This document shows positions 31,517-40,997 of a stretch of 64,000 bases of DNA, one piece after another; position 1 is the stretch's first letter; the number at the start of each line of letters is the position of its first letter. Below the pieces are notes generated by a model. The model was not told the DNA's origin. It saw only the letters and a list, made by a program, of their open reading frames with translations, and searched no databases. The translations under genes were made by a program, and so were the position numbers. Location of the stretch: the NCBI GenBank assembly GCA_024244705.1, contig JAAEOK010000075.1, positions 93,320-157,319 of the forward strand. Reading direction: 5' to 3'. The stretch comes from Alphaproteobacteria bacterium. Lineage in GTDB: Bacteria; Pseudomonadota; Alphaproteobacteria; JAAEOK01.

Positions 31517-32986
31517 TCAGAATATGTCCCCGGTGAAATCGGTGCGAACCCGATCCCTCAGATTTGCGATCGCCTTGAATGCGTCGATCAACCGGTCGCG
31601 CTCGCGCGTCGAGAGACTTTGCGGCGCGACATAGTTGTTGACCGGCCGGCCGGCCTTGAAGTCGGCGACCTGCTGGCGCAGCAGCAATCCGGAGATCTGC
31701 CGGAAGGCGCCGTGAAGGTAGTCCAATTCGTCACCGTCCAAATAGCCGGATTGATAGAGCGCCGTCAGCCTTCGCATGGTTGACGTTTCGGCGATGCCCC
31801 CTTTCAGGCACAGCAGCCGGACCGCCTCGACCAGCGGCAGGGTGCCGGAGTGCTTGAGATTGATTTCGCCGCGATGCTCCTCAACGTCCTTCTCGGTAAT
31901 AAAACGGCCGAACCATCCGAGTGCGACACCATGATCCTCACCGTCCTTGAACATGGCGTTGAGATAAACTGGGCTGTTTTGCGTCAAACGGGTGATGTGT
32001 TCGCGCAGGGCCGAAGCCAGCGCGCGATTCCCGTAGACCGGCTGAAAATCGTAAAATATGCCCGACAGGCGCAGCGCGACGATGCCGCGGCGCTTGGCCC
32101 ATAATGTCGTCTGCTGGCGCCATTGCGACAAGGTCTTCCGCCACAACGGGTTGATCGCCATGACGTAGCCCTTGCAGAACGGAAAGCCGATCGAGTCGAG
32201 GGTTTTCGTCATGCGCTCGGCCAACTCGACGAAGAACGCGTCGATTCGTGTGTGGTCCGAATCCGGATAATCATCGAGAATGAATCCGTTGTCCTGGTCC
32301 GGATAGACATAATTCTCGCCGCGCCCCCCGGAGCCCATGATGATGGCCGCGAAGTCGACCGGCGGCTCGCCCCACTCGCCGGCGGCCATATCTTGCAGGC
32401 AGATATCGATCACCCGACGGTGGATGTCGCGGTTGATATGGGTCAGCAGGCTCTGGATATCCGGCTTGGGCACATCGTCGACAATCATCTCGTCGGCGAC
32501 CTCGACCTGTGCCCGCTTGATGCGGGCCATGCCCTCGATGCTGCCCTCATGGGCGAGCAGGTCGATACGCTCGACGGTTCGGGTGGCGGCGATGCCCATG
32601 GCCACATGAAGGTGGAGAATGCCGACCACGCGGCCGCGGCCGTCATCGACCGGCATGTGCCGGAGTCCGTGCCGCCGCATCTGGGCAATGGCTTGGAACA
32701 GATACTCGTCAGCGCCGATCGTCCGGCATGGATTGGTCATCACACGCTCGACCGGCGTCTCCGGCGACTCGCGAAAGGTGATCCGCTGCAGTACATCGCG
32801 CTCGGTGACAATACCCACGGCGACGCCATCGCCGTCGACGACGACCGCGCTCGTCGCATCGCCATCGACGATCCGCTCGATGACCTCGCTCACCGGCGTT
32901 TCGCACGGCACCAAGGGCGGTGGCGGCGCCATATGATCGCGCGCGATTTGGGTGAATATCCGCGTGTGTACGCCCAGGCTTTTCAA
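31517..32986 (-). CDS. CBS-pair and DUF294 putative nucleotidyltransferase
   Basis: Cytoplasmic signalling protein with an N-terminal CBS pair (about 15-135, with VSEVIERIVDGDATSAVVVD and a second repeat ending in GRVVGILHLH) and then the DUF294 nucleotidyltransferase-like domain with IIMGSGGRGENYVYPDQDNG (the G-S-GR-E and D-x-D pattern of GlnD/GlnB-uridylyltransferase relatives). A DUF294_C helical domain completes the protein. The start is uncertain: a TTG at 32986 keeps the first CBS strand and has a G-rich box upstream, while the ATG at 32932 would clip it. It follows the symporter-kinase gene on the same strand, as in acetate-sensing loci. Confidence 0.8.
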   Translation of the reverse strand: MKSLGVHTRIFTQIARDHMAPPPPLVPCETPVSEVIERIVDGDATSAVVVDGDGVAVGIVTERDVLQRITFRESPETPVERVMTNPCRTIGADEYLFQAIAQMRRHGLRHMPVDDGRGRVVGILHLHVAMGIAATRTVERIDLLAHEGSIEGMARIKRAQVEVADEMIVDDVPKPDIQSLLTHINRDIHRRVIDICLQDMAAGEWGEPPVDFAAIIMGSGGRGENYVYPDQDNGFILDDYPDSDHTRIDAFFVELAERMTKTLDSIGFPFCKGYVMAINPLWRKTLSQWRQQTTLWAKRRGIVALRLSGIFYDFQPVYGNRALASALREHITRLTQNSPVYLNAMFKDGEDHGVALGWFGRFITEKDVEEHRGEINLKHSGTLPLVEAVRLLCLKGGIAETSTMRRLTALYQSGYLDGDELDYLHGAFRQISGLLLRQQVADFKAGRPVNNYVAPQSLSTRERDRLIDAFKAIANLRDRVRTDFTGDIF

Positions 32987-33059
32987 CCGAACCGACCCCC
33001 CGACCTGCTGTTCGCGATGTCTAACATGGATACCGGCGAGTCGAAAGCGGCTGCGGTCA

Positions 33060-35810
33060 TTATTGCGCGGCCTGGACCGCCTCCGTGGCGTAGGGTATCG
33101 CGACCGTAAATCGGCTGCCCTGGCCGGGCCGGCTTTCGACCCAGATGCGTCCGCCGAAATGCTGGACGATTTGACGGCAAATAGGCAGGCCGAGGCCAGT
33201 CCCGAACGGTTTGTCGCCGAGGGTGTCGCCAACCTGCTGGAATTTTTCGAAGATCATTTCCTGGGCCTCGCGAGGAATACCGACCCCATTGTCCTCAACC
33301 GCGATCCGCAATTCCGCCGGCAGCTCCTGAGCGGAAATAGTGACCTTTGGGCCGGCACCGTCGCAGAACTTGACGGCGTTCGACAACAGGTTGACGACGA
33401 CTTGGAACAAGCGGTCGCGGTCGGCATGGACCGAGCGCATACCCTCGGGCATTTGCACGTCCAGCGCGATCGACTTCTCCTTGAACAGGTTGCGGGTTAT
33501 CGCCACCGCCTCCTCGACCACCGCCCGCGGATCGACATCGGCGAAATGCCATTCCATTCGCCCGGCTTCCATCTTCGCCAGATCCAGCACTTCATTGATC
33601 AGGCGGGTCAACCGTTCGCTCTCGGTAATGATGATGTGGAGGTATTCCTGGCGCTCGGCTGCGTCGAGATCGGGATTGTCGTGGAGGATCTCGCCGAACG
33701 ACCGCACCGATGTCAGCGGCGTACGCAATTCGTGGCTGACGGTAGCAATGAAATCGTCCTTCAGCCGGTCGAGTTCTTTGAGCCGCTCGTTGGCGGCCCG
33801 CAATTGGGCGGTGGCCGCCTGCAACTCGCGCGATTTTTGCTCGAGCTGATGGCTATGCTCGATGACGTGGGAGGCCTCGTCGAGGATCTCCATGACCTCG
33901 TCGATGCTGACGATGTCGCCTTTCGTCACCGAAGACACCATGACCCGGGCCGAGGCCGCCCCGATGGCGCCGGCGAGAAGCCGTTCGGCGAAATTGACGA
34001 GATCGGCATCGGCCTCCTTTAGCCGCTTGAGATTGATGTTTCGGCGCCGGCCATAGGCGGCGAAAGCGCGGTCGGCCTGGGACCGCCCGACGAATCGGGT
34101 TACCAGGTTGTAGAGGTCGGCGACGGTGGCGGTGCCGCGCCAGAACCGCGCCTCGTCCGGCTCCCGCGATTGGCGGAGCACGTCGACGAAGAGGGTCGCC
34201 TGAATACGCTCGATGGCGCTCTGCCGGCTGAATAACGACACCGCGACATAGCCGCCGATATTGGCCAGCATGCTCCAGAACAGCGCATGCGACAGCCTAT
34301 CGAACCCCTGCAACGCGAACAGTTCGTAAGGCTTGAGAAGTTCGACCCCGCCCGGTCCGTGATCGATGAAATCGGTCGGCAGCCATCCCGACAGGGCGAA
34401 CGACGGCAGCAACAGGGTGTAGAACCAAACCGCGAAGCCAAGGCTGAGGCCGACCAGCGCCCCCATTCGTGTCGCCCCCTTCCAAAAAATGCCGCCGATG
34501 ATCGCCGGCGCGAACTGGGCCGCGGCGGCGAACGAGATCAGCCCGATGGTGACGAGGGCGTAGGATTCTCCGATATAGCGAAAATAGATGTAGGACAGCA
34601 GCAGGATGCCGATGATCGCCCCACGGCGAATCGCCAGCAGCAGGCCGGTGAGCTCGCCCCTTTGCGCCAGCCGCAACCAGGCGAGGCGCAGCAGTACCGG
34701 CATCACCAGATCGTTGCAGACCATGGTGCTGAGCGCGATGGTGGCGACGATGACCATACCGGTCGCCGCCGACAGACCACCGATGAAAGCGAACAGCGCC
34801 AGCCCCTCCTGGCCATGGGCCATCGGAATGGTCAGCACGAACGTATCGGCATCGACCATCCCGGCGGGAAATTGCAGCAGGCCGGCCAGTGCAATCGGCA
34901 GGACGAAAATATTGATCACCAGCAAGTAGAGCGGAAACAGCCAGATCGCCTTCTTGAGGTGCGATTCGTCGAGGTTCTCGACGACCGTGACCTGAAACTG
35001 CCGGGGCAGACACAAGATCGCCGCCATCGACAAAATGATCAGCGTCACCCAACGAGCGTAATCGCTCCCGCCGCCGACCACGAACAGTCGTTCGGCGGCC
35101 GGAACGGCGGCGGCCTTGGTGAACAGGTCACCGAACCCGTTGTAAAGCCCGAAGGTGACGAAGATGCCGATGGCGAGAAAGGCCACCAGCTTGACCACCG
35201 ATTCGAAGGCGACCGCGACCACCATGCCTTCATGGTGTTCGCTGGCGTCGATATGACGGGTGCCGAACAGGATCGCGAACACGCCCAGGACCAAGGCTAC
35301 CAGAAGCGCGGTATCCTGGAACACCGGGACGCTGTCCAAGGCGCTCGGCATGACGATTTCGGGGTAGCTCAGAAGCACGGTGAAACTGGTCGAGACAGCT
35401 TTCAGCTGGAGCGAGATGTAAGGCAGGATGCCGACCACCGCGATGACCGTTACCAATCCGCTCAGTTGGGTACTCTTGCCGTAGCGCGAGGACAGGAAAT
35501 CGGCGATCGAGGTGATACGGTTGATCTTGGTGATCCGGATGATCTTGACCAGGACGAACCACCACAGCGCGAAGGTCAGCGTCGGGCCGAGATAGATGGG
35601 CAGGAAATCGACGCCGCTCGATGCCGCCCGGCCGACACTCCCGTAGAACGTCCACGAGGTGCAGTAGACGGCGATCGACAGCGCGTAGATATAGGGATTG
35701 TTGGCGAGGCTACGCCGCTCGTCGGCCCGCTTGTCGCCGTAATAGGCAATGGCGAACAGCAGGCACAAATAGGCAAAAGAAACGAAAAGGATGAACCAGC
35801 CGTCGAGCAT
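33060..35810 (-). CDS. Sodium:solute symporter-like sensor histidine kinase (CrbS/MctS type)
   Basis: Protein of 916 residues joining a 13-helix SLC5-type transporter module (about 1-500; FWKGATRMGALVGLSLGFAV) to a cytoplasmic linker, a coiled coil (about 625-670) and a complete kinase: DHp with the phospho-His in SHELRTPLTS, ATPase motifs NLLSNAVKF (N box), EDNGVGIP (G1), FEKFQQ (F) and GTGLGLPI (G2). Such kinases sense acetate or other short organic acids, probably through the transporter-like part, and control acetyl-CoA synthetase and uptake genes. A small membrane gene and a response regulator precede it in the same direction. Confidence 0.92.
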   Translation of the reverse strand: MLDGWFILFVSFAYLCLLFAIAYYGDKRADERRSLANNPYIYALSIAVYCTSWTFYGSVGRAASSGVDFLPIYLGPTLTFALWWFVLVKIIRITKINRITSIADFLSSRYGKSTQLSGLVTVIAVVGILPYISLQLKAVSTSFTVLLSYPEIVMPSALDSVPVFQDTALLVALVLGVFAILFGTRHIDASEHHEGMVVAVAFESVVKLVAFLAIGIFVTFGLYNGFGDLFTKAAAVPAAERLFVVGGGSDYARWVTLIILSMAAILCLPRQFQVTVVENLDESHLKKAIWLFPLYLLVINIFVLPIALAGLLQFPAGMVDADTFVLTIPMAHGQEGLALFAFIGGLSAATGMVIVATIALSTMVCNDLVMPVLLRLAWLRLAQRGELTGLLLAIRRGAIIGILLLSYIYFRYIGESYALVTIGLISFAAAAQFAPAIIGGIFWKGATRMGALVGLSLGFAVWFYTLLLPSFALSGWLPTDFIDHGPGGVELLKPYELFALQGFDRLSHALFWSMLANIGGYVAVSLFSRQSAIERIQATLFVDVLRQSREPDEARFWRGTATVADLYNLVTRFVGRSQADRAFAAYGRRRNINLKRLKEADADLVNFAERLLAGAIGAASARVMVSSVTKGDIVSIDEVMEILDEASHVIEHSHQLEQKSRELQAATAQLRAANERLKELDRLKDDFIATVSHELRTPLTSVRSFGEILHDNPDLDAAERQEYLHIIITESERLTRLINEVLDLAKMEAGRMEWHFADVDPRAVVEEAVAITRNLFKEKSIALDVQMPEGMRSVHADRDRLFQVVVNLLSNAVKFCDGAGPKVTISAQELPAELRIAVEDNGVGIPREAQEMIFEKFQQVGDTLGDKPFGTGLGLPICRQIVQHFGGRIWVESRPGQGSRFTVAIPYATEAVQAAQ

Positions 35811-35812
35811 GG

Positions 35813-36064
35813 CTATAGGCCCATATCGTCGCCGGCGCGCGCGTCCCTGGCACGCTGCCGGCGGACAGCGGTGCGCCATCCGGCGCTGAGGAACAGCAGG
35901 ACGATGAACGCCGCCCAGGCGGAAAACAGGTAGAAGTAGAGAATCGGAAAATCGCCGATAAACCCGTCCGTGCTGAACAGCGACAAGAGCGGCGGATTGA
36001 ATATCAACAGGCCGAGCGCGAACAGGGCCAGCGAACGTTCGCGAGTGGTACCCCGTCGCGTCAT
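35813..36064 (-). CDS. Small two-helix membrane protein upstream of the symporter-kinase
   Basis: Protein of 83 residues with two predicted membrane helices (LALFALGLLIFNPPLLSL and FYLFSAWAAFIVLLFLSAGW) and a basic C-terminus. It lies 2 bases from the kinase start and 9 bases after the response regulator, so it is part of that operon. Small membrane proteins in this place are common beside CrbS-type kinases, but I know of no assigned function. It might modulate the transporter-like sensor. Confidence 0.7.
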   Translation of the reverse strand: MTRRGTTRERSLALFALGLLIFNPPLLSLFSTDGFIGDFPILYFYLFSAWAAFIVLLFLSAGWRTAVRRQRARDARAGDDMGL

Positions 36065-36073
36065 TGGGGCATC

Positions 36074-36460
36074 CTATTGGTCTCGGTTCGCCCCGCCATC
36101 GAGGAGCTGCTTGACCTTGTCGACCACCTCGCGGGTCGAGAACGGTTTGGTGATGTATTCGTCGGCGCCCAGGGCGATCCCCTTGTCACGTTCCGCATCG
36201 CGCCCCTTGGCGGTAAGCATGATGATCTTGACGGACGCCAGGTCCGGATTTTTCCGGATCGATTCACACACTTGATACCCGTTACGCTTGGGCAGCATGA
36301 CATCGAGCAGGACCAGGTCCGGCGCCGATTCAGCCAGCGCCGCCAGGGCGGCGTCGCCGTCCCGCGCCACGGTGACCGTATAGCCGGCCTTTTTCATGAG
36401 AAACTCGAGCGACAGGACGATGTTCGGCTCATCCTCGACGATAAGGATCGACTCCACCAT
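36074..36460 (-). CDS. Single-domain response regulator (CheY-like)
   Basis: Receiver domain of 128 residues with acidic pocket VEDEPN, the phosphoacceptor Asp in LVLLDVMLPKRNG, the switch Thr in IIMLTAKG and the Lys in EYITKPFS. There is no output domain, so it must act by protein contact or as a phosphotransfer intermediate. The start at MVESILIVEDE is preceded by TTGGAG; a 16-codon extension upstream looks non-conserved. First gene of the operon that contains the symporter-kinase, its likely phosphodonor. Confidence 0.9.
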   Translation of the reverse strand: MVESILIVEDEPNIVLSLEFLMKKAGYTVTVARDGDAALAALAESAPDLVLLDVMLPKRNGYQVCESIRKNPDLASVKIIMLTAKGRDAERDKGIALGADEYITKPFSTREVVDKVKQLLDGGANRDQ

Positions 36461-36968
36461 CCGCCACGCTCCAACATCCGAGGGCAGCAGCATTCCCGTC
36501 CTGGCCATAACGAGGCGCGCTGCGCCGGTTCACCTCCCTGCCGCCGGGATCGTCCCGAACAGCAGACCGGATGAATTCTACCCCTTTCGTACGCGGCTTG
36601 CCATGCATGTAACGAACGCGGCCCATTCGATGGGACCCCGTCTACCGGCGGGGTTGCGCACGACGGGCCAAGCCACGGCCCACTGGTGGCGGCCGTCGGC
36701 GCGTCGGGGTCCTGATCGACCACCGCTCGCCTGTCCGCGAGAGCAACCGTTTGACGCATCGATGCGACAAACCGGACTGGGATCAGTACCTGAGAAAATT
36801 TACAATATTAACAGATTTGCAGAATATTTTGCAAAGTATATTTCGTTATAACACAATTGCTTAAGTAATAACATTGACAATTATCACATATTGTGAAATT
36901 TTCACACTACGCTCGAAATCGGTTTCCGACGCGCACGCCGTGAGACCACTGAACAAGGGAGACCCGAA
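36461..36968. promoter_or_regulatory. 508-bp divergent control region with ScfR/PccR-like box and a palindrome
   Basis: Unusually AT-rich on its right half. Two candidate operators are visible: TTTGCAGA-ATAT-TTTGCAAA at 36816-36835, a direct repeat of the 8-mer TTTGCAAA with one mismatch and a 4-base gap; and the 15-bp palindrome TGTGAAA-T-TTTCACA at 36892-36906. A TTGACA lies at 36874-36879. Both boxes face the 32-residue membrane protein gene at 36969, and the region also contains the promoter of the response-regulator operon. No other coding sequence was found here. Confidence 0.55.
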
Positions 36969-37067
36969 ATGACCCAGCTCGCAGCCACGATCAACAATAA
37001 CAAGAGTGTAGTGCTTTTGATCGCAGGCCTCACCGCACTCGTGGTGATTGGCATTCTGACCAGCTAA
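36969..37067 (+). CDS. 32-residue single-helix membrane protein
   Basis: A complete small gene: AAGGGAG box, ATG, a polar N-terminus (MTQLAATINNNKS), one hydrophobic helix of about 18 residues (VVLLIAGLTALVVIGILT), TAA, then a strong terminator at 37106. It has its own promoter region with two operator-like sites, and it lies between the acetate-type two-component operon and the ScfR-like regulator. The combination of signals makes it a credible gene despite its size. It may modulate a transporter or kinase; the function is unknown. Confidence 0.65.
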   Translation: MTQLAATINNNKSVVLLIAGLTALVVIGILTS

Positions 37068-37160: not shown

Positions 37161-38756
37161 CTAATCCGGCTTGTCGGAAGCGGCCTCGCGCGGCTCCGGA
37201 AACATCGCCGGCGACACCCGCTCCGTACAATCGCTCCGGTCGCACAGGCGACAGGTGACGCCGACCGGTACGGCGGTGGCATCGGCGCCGAGGTCGAGCC
37301 CGTCGCCATAAACAATTTCGTGAGCGTAGGACAATTCGCAGCCCAAGCCGATCGCGTGCCAAGCCGGCGGATCGCCGGTACGGGCGGGCGGGCGCCGCAG
37401 CGCGCGGGCGATATTGAAGTACGTCGTCCCGTCCGGCATACGCGCGATCTGGGTATCGATGCGATCAGGCGTCAGGAACGCGGTGTGGACGTTCCACCGC
37501 GGACAAGCGCCGCCGAACCGCGCGATGTGCAGGCCCGACCCGCTGAACTGCTTGAAGACGTTGCCGGCAATATCGATGCGGAGGAAATGGAATGGCACGC
37601 CGCCGGCGCCGGGCCGGCGCAAAGCGGTCAAACGCTGGCATACCTGCTCGAAACTGGCATCGAATCGTCGGGACAGAAGATCGATGTCGTAGCGGAGCGT
37701 TTGCGCCGATTCGAGAAACGCTTCATAGGGCATCATCGCCGCGGCGGCGAAATTGCCGGCAAGGACCTGCCGCGCACGTTCGCGGGCAGCGGCACCGAGC
37801 AGGTCATTGTCGTCCAACAGCGGATCGAGAAGATCCGGCGCCGACAGCAATGCGATACGGCGCGCGATCTGAAAGTCGCGACTCGGGATCGACAACGCCT
37901 CGGAGAGCAGCAGGCGACGCCGCGCCGGATCATAGAAACTGTGGCCGGGCGCGTCCGGGCTTACCGGAACAATGCGCATGCTGACGTCGAACCGGCGTGA
38001 CAATTCCGCGGTCAGAGCCTGGGTCCGCGAACCGCCCTCGGCGTCCAACGAATCGATGAAATTCTCGGCGGCCACCTCGAGCGTGGGAAAATGATTGCCC
38101 TGTGTTTGGATGAAATCGCGCACCTCTTCGGCCGGCGATAGGGCGCCTTCTTGGCCCTCGCGACTGGCCGCATCGGCAAAGTCGAGCATGCGGTCGATGG
38201 TCGATGCCAGTTTCTCGCTTTCGTCGACCAGCACGCCGAGAAAGGCCTGCCGCTGCGACGGCTCCATATCGCTGTGGTCGTGAAGAATCTCGGAAAATGA
38301 TCTGATCGAGGTCAGGAACGTGCGCAGTTCGTGGGTCGAGGTCGACAGGAAAGTGTCGTCGGACAGACGCTCCGTCAACGATCGCACATCCTCTCGGGCC
38401 TTGCGGAAGGCGCGATAGAGGGCCAACACCTCCTGACACAGGCCGGGGGCGGCGGTGACCATGTCGAGCAGCTCGGATTGGGAAAAATCGACGTCACGGA
38501 ACAACGGGTCACCGAACAATTCGGTGAGGTCGGCGACCAGACGAGATTCTTCATCCTCGGAAAATATTTCCAGGTCGACGCCGAAAGTCTTGCCGATATT
38601 GATAAGAATCGACAGGGTCAGCGGTCGCTGGTTGTGTTCGATCAGATTCAGATAGCTCGGCGATATGCCCAGTTTTCGGGCCATGTCGACTTGGGTCATC
38701 GCCCGTTCGCGGCGCAATCGGCGGATCTTTCCACCCATCAGGACTTTCGCTGCCAT
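37161..38756 (-). CDS. ScfR/RamB-family transcription regulator with inserted histidine-kinase DHp domain
   Basis: Protein of 531 residues. It has an XRE HTH (about 10-65, GKIRRLRRERAMTQVDMA), the short-chain fatty-acid regulator core with an ImmA/IrrE-like region (from about 205, SPAEEVRDFIQTQGNHFP), and the C-terminal cysteine motif CRLCDRSDCTERV. Between HTH helices and core (about 125-200) sits an extra segment, STSTHELRTFLTSIRSFSE, which is a DHp (HisKA) domain with its phosphoacceptor-type H142. By eye it is about half identical to the DHp of the neighbouring symporter-kinase. No kinase ATPase domain is present. ScfR, PccR and RamB relatives control acetate and propionate metabolism, which fits the adjacent symporter and kinase. 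Confidence 0.85.
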   Translation of the reverse strand: MAAKVLMGGKIRRLRRERAMTQVDMARKLGISPSYLNLIEHNQRPLTLSILINIGKTFGVDLEIFSEDEESRLVADLTELFGDPLFRDVDFSQSELLDMVTAAPGLCQEVLALYRAFRKAREDVRSLTERLSDDTFLSTSTHELRTFLTSIRSFSEILHDHSDMEPSQRQAFLGVLVDESEKLASTIDRMLDFADAASREGQEGALSPAEEVRDFIQTQGNHFPTLEVAAENFIDSLDAEGGSRTQALTAELSRRFDVSMRIVPVSPDAPGHSFYDPARRRLLLSEALSIPSRDFQIARRIALLSAPDLLDPLLDDNDLLGAAARERARQVLAGNFAAAAMMPYEAFLESAQTLRYDIDLLSRRFDASFEQVCQRLTALRRPGAGGVPFHFLRIDIAGNVFKQFSGSGLHIARFGGACPRWNVHTAFLTPDRIDTQIARMPDGTTYFNIARALRRPPARTGDPPAWHAIGLGCELSYAHEIVYGDGLDLGADATAVPVGVTCRLCDRSDCTERVSPAMFPEPREAASDKPD

Positions 38757-39026
38757 CGTATCCCGCGCTGTTACATTGTTTACAAATTTACATCACGTAT
38801 CGTAAATATGTTTACTTTGAAATCATTATATTGCCAATAAATTATTGACGTGGGCGATATTTGGGTGAAGTGTTCACACAGCCTGTGGTAGGTCGCCGCC
38901 GGGTGTGCGTTTGGACCAAAAAATCGGCCTACCACGACGTGATTTTAGCCCCTCCGTTGGAGGCAAGACCTCGGCAAGAGGTGGACCCGCGACAAGGATC
39001 GGGCTTCAAAGAAAGGGAGATGCCTT
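38757..39026. promoter_or_regulatory. Divergent control region between the ScfR-like gene and the symporter
   Basis: About 270 bases. An AT-rich block just upstream of the regulator holds TTTACAAATTTACA (38779-38792) and the 14-bp near-palindrome GTAAATATGTTTAC (38802-38815). These resemble the TTTGCAAA-type boxes of ScfR/RamB regulators with one base changed, so autoregulation and control of the symporter are plausible. AAAGGGAGAT precedes the symporter ATG. Confidence 0.45.
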
Positions 39027-40997
39027 ATGGAAGCGAAGGTTATCTGGCTTTTCATCTTCGTCCTCGTTTACTGGGCCTATTGCATCACGATGGGCCTCAG
39101 AAGCGCGCGAATGGCGAAGACCGCCAGCGACTATTTCATCGCCGGGCGGCGGTTGAACATGTGGGTGTTCATCCTCGCTGCGACGGCAACATCATTCTCG
39201 GGATGGACGTTCATGGGTCATCCGGGCCTCGTCTTTCGCGACGGGTTCCAATACGCCTATGCATCGTTCTACACGATCACCATCCCCTTCACCGGCGTGC
39301 TGTTCCTGAAACGGCAGTGGATGCTGGGCAAACGCTACGGCTACGTCACGCCGGGCGAGATGCTGTCCGATTATTTCCAGGGCAATGCCATCCGCATCCT
39401 GACCGTGCTCGTGGCCCTGCTGTTCTCGATCCCTTATCTGGGTGTCCAGCTCGGTGCCTCGGGCTTCCTGTTCACCGTCCTCACCGACGGCATGATCCCC
39501 AAGGATTGGGGTATGTGGATCCTGTCGATCGTCGTCCTCGTCTACGTCGCATCGGGCGGTCTGCGGGCCGTGGCTTATGTGGACACCGCACAATGTGTTC
39601 TGCTCGCCCTCGGTATCGCGGTCGTCGGTGTGATTGCGTTGCAGGCAGCCGGCGGCTGGGATTCGCTGCAATCGGGTCTCGCCGCATTGGGCGCCTCCGA
39701 TGTCGGCAAATGGGGCACCACACAGGGCTACGGCGGCGGCGACTACAACGCCTACTTCGCCATCCCCGGTGTGATTCAGTTCACGGCCGGCTTGGGCAAG
39801 GAAACCCCGGTCGGCGGTCTGTGGACCGGCATCATGTGCCTGACCTACATGTTCGCATTGATGGGCATTCAGTCGGCACCGGCGTTCTCGATGTGGTCGT
39901 TCGCCAATAACGATCCGCGTCCGTTCGCGCCGCAACAGGTGTGGGCCTCGTCGCTGGTGATCGGCGGCATCCTGTTCTTCTTCACCGCGTTCCAGGGCAT
40001 GGGCGGCAATATCCTCGGCGCCAACCCGGCGGTGAACGAAGCAGGTTTGGCGATCGCCAACGTCCTCCCCGACACGATCGCGGCAAAGCCCGATTCGATC
40101 GTACCGCACTACATGAACCTGATGGCGACACAAGCGCCCTGGTTGGTTGGGCTATTGGCGGTCTGCGCCTTGGCCGCGATGCAGTCGACGGGTGCCGCTT
40201 ATATGTCGACGGCTGGCGCGATGCTGACCCGCGACCTCTATAAGAAGTACCTCAATCCGACCGCTTCGCACGCGACGCAGAAGCTGTGCGGCCGCGGCGG
40301 CGTAGCATTCATCGTGCTGTCGGCGTTGGCGGTGGCGACCTTCTCGGCCGATGCCCTGGTTCTGTTGGGCGGCTTGGCGGTCGCCTTCGGGTTCCAGATG
40401 TGGCCGTCCTTGGCGTCGGTTTGTTGGTTCCCGTGGCTCACCCGTCAGGGTGTGACCTGGGGTCTCGCGGGCGGCCTGATCGCCGTCATCTTTACCGAGA
40501 CCTTCGGCCAAACGATCGCCGGCTGGTTCGGCATCGACCTGCCGTGGGGCCGCTGGCCGTGGACCATCCATTCGGCCGGTTGGGGCATGCTCGTCAATCT
40601 GGCTATCGCGCTGCCGATCTCGGCCGCGACCCAGAATGCCAATGCCCTCGCCCATCGCATGACCTACCACAACTTCCTCGCCGAACATGGCAGCCTGTCG
40701 CCTGAAAAGCGCAAGCTGATCCCGGCGGCGTGGGTCATCACTCTGGCCTGGATGTTCTTCGGAATCGGTCCGGGTGCGGTGCTCGGCAACTACATCTTCG
40801 GTGCGCCGGATGCCGGCGTCGATGGCTGGACCTTCGGCATACCGTCGATCTGGGCATGGCAGATCCTGTTCTGGGTGCTCGGCGTCTTCATGATGTGGTT
40901 CTTGGCATACAAGATGGAGATGTCGACGGTTCCGGATAAGGAGGTCGAGGCGTTGGCCGAGGATATCGGCGACGTCGCACCGGAACAGCAGAGCTAA
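39027..40997 (+). CDS. Sodium:solute symporter (SSS/SLC5 family), probably for a carboxylate
   Basis: Inner-membrane symporter of 656 residues with about 13 helices. Family features include SDYFIAGRRLNMW near residue 35, the sodium-site region ATATSFSGWTFMGHPG, GYVTPGEMLSDYFQ and SGGLRAVAYVDTAQ. It stands between the ScfR-like regulator and a strong terminator, with its own promoter region and a good ribosome-binding site (AAAGGGAGATGCC). Together with the CrbS-type kinase and ScfR-like regulator this suggests uptake of acetate, propionate, pyruvate or a similar acid. The exact substrate is inferred only from context. Confidence 0.88.
   Translation: MEAKVIWLFIFVLVYWAYCITMGLRSARMAKTASDYFIAGRRLNMWVFILAATATSFSGWTFMGHPGLVFRDGFQYAYASFYTITIPFTGVLFLKRQWMLGKRYGYVTPGEMLSDYFQGNAIRILTVLVALLFSIPYLGVQLGASGFLFTVLTDGMIPKDWGMWILSIVVLVYVASGGLRAVAYVDTAQCVLLALGIAVVGVIALQAAGGWDSLQSGLAALGASDVGKWGTTQGYGGGDYNAYFAIPGVIQFTAGLGKETPVGGLWTGIMCLTYMFALMGIQSAPAFSMWSFANNDPRPFAPQQVWASSLVIGGILFFFTAFQGMGGNILGANPAVNEAGLAIANVLPDTIAAKPDSIVPHYMNLMATQAPWLVGLLAVCALAAMQSTGAAYMSTAGAMLTRDLYKKYLNPTASHATQKLCGRGGVAFIVLSALAVATFSADALVLLGGLAVAFGFQMWPSLASVCWFPWLTRQGVTWGLAGGLIAVIFTETFGQTIAGWFGIDLPWGRWPWTIHSAGWGMLVNLAIALPISAATQNANALAHRMTYHNFLAEHGSLSPEKRKLIPAAWVITLAWMFFGIGPGAVLGNYIFGAPDAGVDGWTFGIPSIWAWQILFWVLGVFMMWFLAYKMEMSTVPDKEVEALAEDIGDVAPEQQS

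Follow-up and report, generated by a model that had tools for sequence, protein, structure and literature searches.

The regulator described here, encoded on the minus strand of the window (the whole 64,000-nucleotide alphaproteobacterial stretch that was analysed), is an HTH/M78-like/ScfRs protein of the RamB-PrpR type that carries a true HisKA (DHp) domain and no ATPase domain. DHp-bearing ScfR regulators of this kind are real and conserved and, as far as the open-licence literature goes, undescribed; the sequence-only reading that first singled out the gene knew of no description, and we found none in that literature. We lean, modestly, towards the view that the regulator serves a two-component system as its transcriptional output, and that the receiver of this system, itself without an output domain, docks on the regulator DHp. 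For many receiver-only response regulators no output is known, and the conserved gene partner here offers a plausible one. If true, a one-component regulator would have entered a two-component pathway by taking over a kinase's docking domain, and the three genes, with one predicted operator, make a compact system for experiment (Table 1).

Table 1. Features of the window discussed in the text.
Feature	Position	Strand	Basis
ScfR/RamB-type regulator with DHp domain	37161..38756	-	531 aa; Pfam HTH_3, HisKA, Peptidase_M78, ScfRs; same layout in 57 homologues
HTH_3 DNA-binding domain, residues 11-64	38565..38726	-	PF01381, 46.9 bits
HisKA/DHp domain of regulator, residues 135-196	38169..38354	-	Pfam, genome scan, profile comparisons
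His142 codon, phosphoacceptor position (HELRT)	38331..38333	-	Alignment columns, His in 50/57
Peptidase_M78-like (IrrE N-terminal-like) sensor part, residues 256-377	37626..37991	-	Pfam
ScfRs C-terminal domain, residues 379-518	37203..37622	-	PF09856, 189.6 bits
SLC5-type symporter-histidine kinase, 939 aa, no C-terminal receiver	33060..35879	-	HisKA 707-773, HATPase_c 820-930; symporter part by family homology
Receiver-only response regulator, 144 aa as listed	36074..36508	-	Response_reg only
Paired TGTAAA direct repeat in divergent intergenic region, probable regulator binding site	38779..38792	-	Sequence motif
Divergent sodium:solute symporter, likely target gene	39027..40997	+	SSF family

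Domain architecture of the regulator

The HisKA domain of the regulator scores 38.7 bits in Pfam (E 1e-9) against a gathering score of 26.9, contains the phosphoacceptor residue His142, and is recovered independently, above cut-off, by a genome-wide HisKA scan. The DHp segment that the sequence-only reading had seen by eye inside an ScfR/RamB-type regulator is thus backed by a profile, and the same reading was right that an ATPase domain is missing: Pfam finds no HATPase domain in the protein, which does not qualify as a histidine kinase. Both the HTH and the ScfRs C-terminal domain are present, as in the ScfR/IsaR family. So are the cysteines of that family's [4Fe4S] cluster, with the CX2CX4C motif (C502, C505 and C510) and C418 invariant in alignment A1; in MtPrpR, cysteines of the CX2CX4C type are ligands of the [4Fe4S] cluster (PMC6765138). 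Binding of a CoA thioester has been shown for MtPrpR and Paracoccus RamB only (PMC10370305, PMC6765138), and the sensor part of our regulator matches MtPrpR at E 7e-75. Against the RamB equivalog model NF038139 the protein scores 406.9 bits, below the NCBI cut-off of 700, because the DHp breaks the match.

The resemblance of the inserted domain to the DHp of the neighbouring symporter-kinase, first counted as 28 of 57 positions, was right in substance: the ungapped alignment gives 31 identities in 61, and BLASTP of the regulator against the kinase protein gives E 4e-19. A family profile of regulator DHps, from which the window's protein and all members with an acid following the His were omitted, matches the profile of the kinase DHp (hhalign probability 99.6, E 7.5e-25, 62 columns) and the solved HK853 chains (E 5.5e-7), and 20 of 26 long-form regulators taken singly match HisKA at E up to 0.1. 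The DHp of the regulator family is genuine and no chance match.

Distribution and origin

In a set of 140 ScfR homologues, whose non-carriers were best hits plus a chosen set and whose sampling was not random, 57 contain the DHp, the other 83 a short linker in its place. The stretch from HTH to sensor measures 81-90 residues in the former and 14-32 in the latter, with no intermediate lengths. Carriers span about 20 alphaproteobacterial family codes, with Thalassospira, Caenispirillum, Ferrovibrio, Kiloniellales, other Rhodospirillales records and Neorhizobium sp. SOG26 among those named. In a regulator tree computed without the DHp columns, a single branch with support of 99 splits carriers from non-carriers; in a tree of the DHp domains alone, for which 66 columns are few and the set held only seven other kinases, the regulator copies form one group (99) beside the symporter-kinases and apart from the other kinases. 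From these two trees, the DHp was most likely captured once, long ago, from the symporter-kinase lineage. Recent copying from the neighbouring kinase was rejected, since the regulator DHps form one group and score 0.37 with their own kinase against 0.36 with others, and an assembly artefact was rejected because the layout is identical at 57 loci.

Among the hits examined in the plasmid collection, the DHp form appears only in Neorhizobium sp. SOG26 (L173), and the Sinorhizobium, Ensifer and Azospirillum plasmid matches, among those listed, are too short to hold a DHp. In family f23 the operon order is unchanged and the DHp regulator is diverged and shorter; these shortened regulators (L152 9113-10453(+) and L189-L191) are frames of 434-483 aa in which the sensor part is strongly diverged.

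Linkage to a kinase and a receiver

Co-occurrence of the insertion with an SLC5-type kinase, which the sequence-only reading had raised, is borne out: such a kinase lies within about 8 kb of 46 of the 57 carriers and of none of the 83 non-carriers, counts that are not independent because the carriers are one clade. A receiver gene is found near 48 of the 57, and 47 of these receivers have no output domain; the one that does, at L144 on a short contig, probably belongs to another system. The usual order is regulator, receiver, kinase on a single strand, as in the window, where all three are on the minus strand and where comparison with homologues suggests that the receiver gene probably starts at 36460. 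When two class-wide searches were compared, G064, 68% complete, was the only genome with a full-length DHp regulator in which the non-hybrid kinase was missing. In genomes whose regulator is unlinked, a receiver-only gene still adjoins the kinase, and at L113, and less closely at L127, the receiver adjoins the regulator although the kinase is elsewhere.

The kinase-receiver pair can have another use, since four families (f52, f57, f87 and f131) combine the kinase with a receiver-only protein but lack a DHp regulator; in most of them a gap of ~2 kb separates the two genes. The loci concerned are L174, L175 and L182-L188; in Azospirillum (L174) kinase and receiver are separated by a gene for a PAS + RNase_T exonuclease, and at L175 a LuxR-type response regulator is adjacent. 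Once shared descent was taken into account, a partial-distance test gave no coevolution of the regulator DHp with the receiver (partial r 0.02, p 0.39); for the kinase DHp with the receiver the same test gave 0.31. Two further genes of the window may be recorded here. A CBS-DUF294 nucleotidyltransferase-like gene (31517-33232(-)) adjoins the kinase and occurs near the DHp regulator in four loci, the window included, and a 32-codon, membrane-helix-like ORF (36969-37067(+)), followed by a terminator-like hairpin, lies between the receiver and regulator genes.

Residue pattern of the regulator DHp

In HisKA proteins, the acid at H+1 is required for kinase but not phosphatase activity, and the T/N at H+4 for phosphatase but not kinase activity (PMC3510030). 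Across the 57 carriers, the H+1 acid is gone in 51 (the window's copy, HELRT, is among the six that keep it), and T/N is present in 47, with S in eight more. Arg at H+3 has been lost in 45 and Pro at H+5 in all 57; conserved positions include R(H+10) in 47, S(H+11) in 50, E(H+14) in 55 and I(H+15) in 57. This is the pattern of a domain that engages a receiver, and not of one to which an ATPase domain adds phosphate.

The phosphoacceptor His is retained in 50 of the 57, so that its loss in most homologues, which the sequence-only reading had named as evidence against itself, did not occur. Every one of the 43 copies linked to receiver and kinase has it, and the seven members that lack it are all in loci apart from both (7 of 14 unlinked vs 0 of 43 linked; p 1.3e-5, uncorrected for descent and reflecting two or three separate losses). 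The residue in its place is F at L114, L118, L122 and L123, Q at L138 and L140, and Y at L142. These His-less DHps may read the receiver as DivL does, or they may be decaying.

Proposed mechanism and alternatives

In the mechanism we propose, the symporter-kinase would sense an external solute and phosphorylate the receiver-only protein, which would dock on the regulator DHp as on the kinase DHp; docking, with or without phosphate exchange with His142, would alter the helical bundle between the HTH and the acyl-CoA/Fe-S sensor, and the altered bundle would change DNA binding at TTGTAAA repeats upstream of the transporter and of the regulator itself. What we infer here is that the receiver docks and exchanges phosphate, how and in which sense DNA binding responds, and what the signals are; the domains, their single origin, the gene linkage, the partner that is receiver-only, the residue pattern and the enrichment of the motif are observed. 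One protein would then combine an outside signal with an inside acyl-CoA signal. That the factor captured a kinase DHp as a socket for an outputless receiver, and so combines an extracellular signal, carried as receiver phosphate, with intracellular acyl-CoA, has in our estimate about an even chance of being right. In many alphaproteobacteria, a DHp-bearing regulator of the acetate-metabolism type probably reads both an outside signal and the internal fuel level.

Receiver docking is favoured because the DHp is genuine, has one origin and groups with this kinase lineage; because most carriers, but no non-carrier, have the regulator gene linked to those of a receiver and the kinase, the linked receivers being without output; because the His is universal when linked and only half retained when not; because the kinase-only acid is lost while the phosphatase-only T/N is kept; because the receiver can stay beside the regulator when the kinase has gone elsewhere (L113, less closely L127); and because there is the precedent of DivL and DivK, and the Cys ligands and operator-like sites are retained. 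It is weakened by the lack of coevolution between regulator DHp and receiver, by the seven His losses, by the unlinked members, by the four families that have the kinase and a receiver-only protein without the DHp regulator, and by the descent of all carriers from one clade.

An unlikely alternative reverses the flow of information, from intracellular acyl-CoA to the two-component system, and lets the regulator DHp act on the phosphorylated receiver as a phosphatase, sink or decoy. The kept T/N and lost acid are the kinase-minus, phosphatase-plus pattern of HisKA mutants, but the receiver would be left without a known output, yet the regulator retains its HTH and operator-like sites. The sequence-only reading had named competition for the response regulator as one option, and the receiver is indeed a more likely partner of the DHp than the kinase is. 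We find it similarly improbable that the DHp merely dimerises the regulator as a structural hairpin with the His as a relic. Dimerisation is the nature of DHp domains, and the members without His and the missing coevolution with the receiver fit such a role, but the His is present in all 43 linked members, S(H+11), E(H+14) and I(H+15) are nearly invariant, linkage to receiver and kinase persists over about 20 families, and 83 relatives manage without the domain. Direct action of the kinase, its ATPase domain phosphorylating the regulator His in trans or the two DHps forming a mixed dimer, is the least probable, since for all that the DHps are related and the window's copy retains HELRT, the H+1 acid needed for HisKA autophosphorylation (PMC3510030) is lost in most members, as are Arg at H+3 in 45 and Pro at H+5 in all, and a regulator DHp resembles its own kinase no more than it does other kinases; phosphorylation of the regulator by the kinase, as first suggested, is for the two losses at H+1 and H+5 less favoured than receiver docking.

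Comparison with known systems

RamB, PccR and MtPrpR (ScfR or IsaR family) share with our regulator the HTH, the M78-like and ScfRs domains, the Cys ligands and TTGTAAA-type sites; what differs here is the DHp in the linker and the linkage to a two-component system. The sequence-only reading had spoken of a repressor; the regulator may act otherwise, since one studied ScfR protein appears to be activator and repressor both (PMC10370305). An ScfR relative, Pden_1785 of P. denitrificans, clusters with a two-component system, which was left aside there (PMC10370305). The SLC5/STAC systems CrbS/CrbR and RpuS/RpuR have in common with ours the fusion of an SLC5 symporter to a histidine kinase and an acetate or pyruvate context. 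In S. fredii, however, the SLC5 kinases are hybrids with LuxR-type response regulators (PMC9100948), whereas the kinase of our system is non-hybrid, its linked receiver shows Response_reg alone and no DNA-binding output, and a DHp-bearing ScfR protein stands beside them. Identity with RpuS/R or with the S. fredii CrbS/R was rejected on receiver type.

The closest parallel to the proposed docking is DivL of Caulobacter, in which a DHp without kinase activity senses phosphorylated DivK, a receiver-only protein (PMC4211667). Among the residues with which DivL docks are R at H+3, T at H+7 and, at H+12, an aromatic residue (PMC4211667), and the window's regulator has R145, T149 and F154 at these positions. 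A non-kinase DHp reading a receiver-only protein would be common to both, and some members of the regulator family likewise lack the His. The two differ in that DivL, a membrane pseudokinase, possesses an ATPase domain and has CckA as its target, whereas the DHp of the regulator is part of a DNA-binding protein. ChpT and Spo0B are also DHp-derived, without kinase activity, and handle receiver phosphate. Both have a degenerate ATPase-like domain and pass phosphate between receivers, and neither is known to bind DNA.

Candidate DNA sites and target genes

The paired repeat of Table 1 is the only strong paired site in the 64 kb, and none was found in 20 mononucleotide shuffles. The half-site TTTGTAAA lies upstream of 36 carriers, whereas in shuffles the commonest 8-mer of any kind reached 5-7; it is also found upstream of non-carriers, and for this reason the family seems to have retained its DNA specificity. 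Eight loci have an SSF symporter adjoining the DHp regulator. What lies divergent from the regulator in most carriers, however, is a conserved five-gene ABC importer of the branched-chain/urea type (L039, L094, L138 and about 30 more loci). An acetate-CoA ligase gene is near in six carrier loci, and a role in the uptake of acetate-like acids is plausible. The exact octamer TTTGCAAA occurs once in the window (0.41 expected) and was not counted as evidence. An AT-rich stretch upstream of the receiver gene (36795-36842) contains TTTACA and one TTTGCAAA; it could be a second operator, though a third of shuffles would contain one such octamer by chance.
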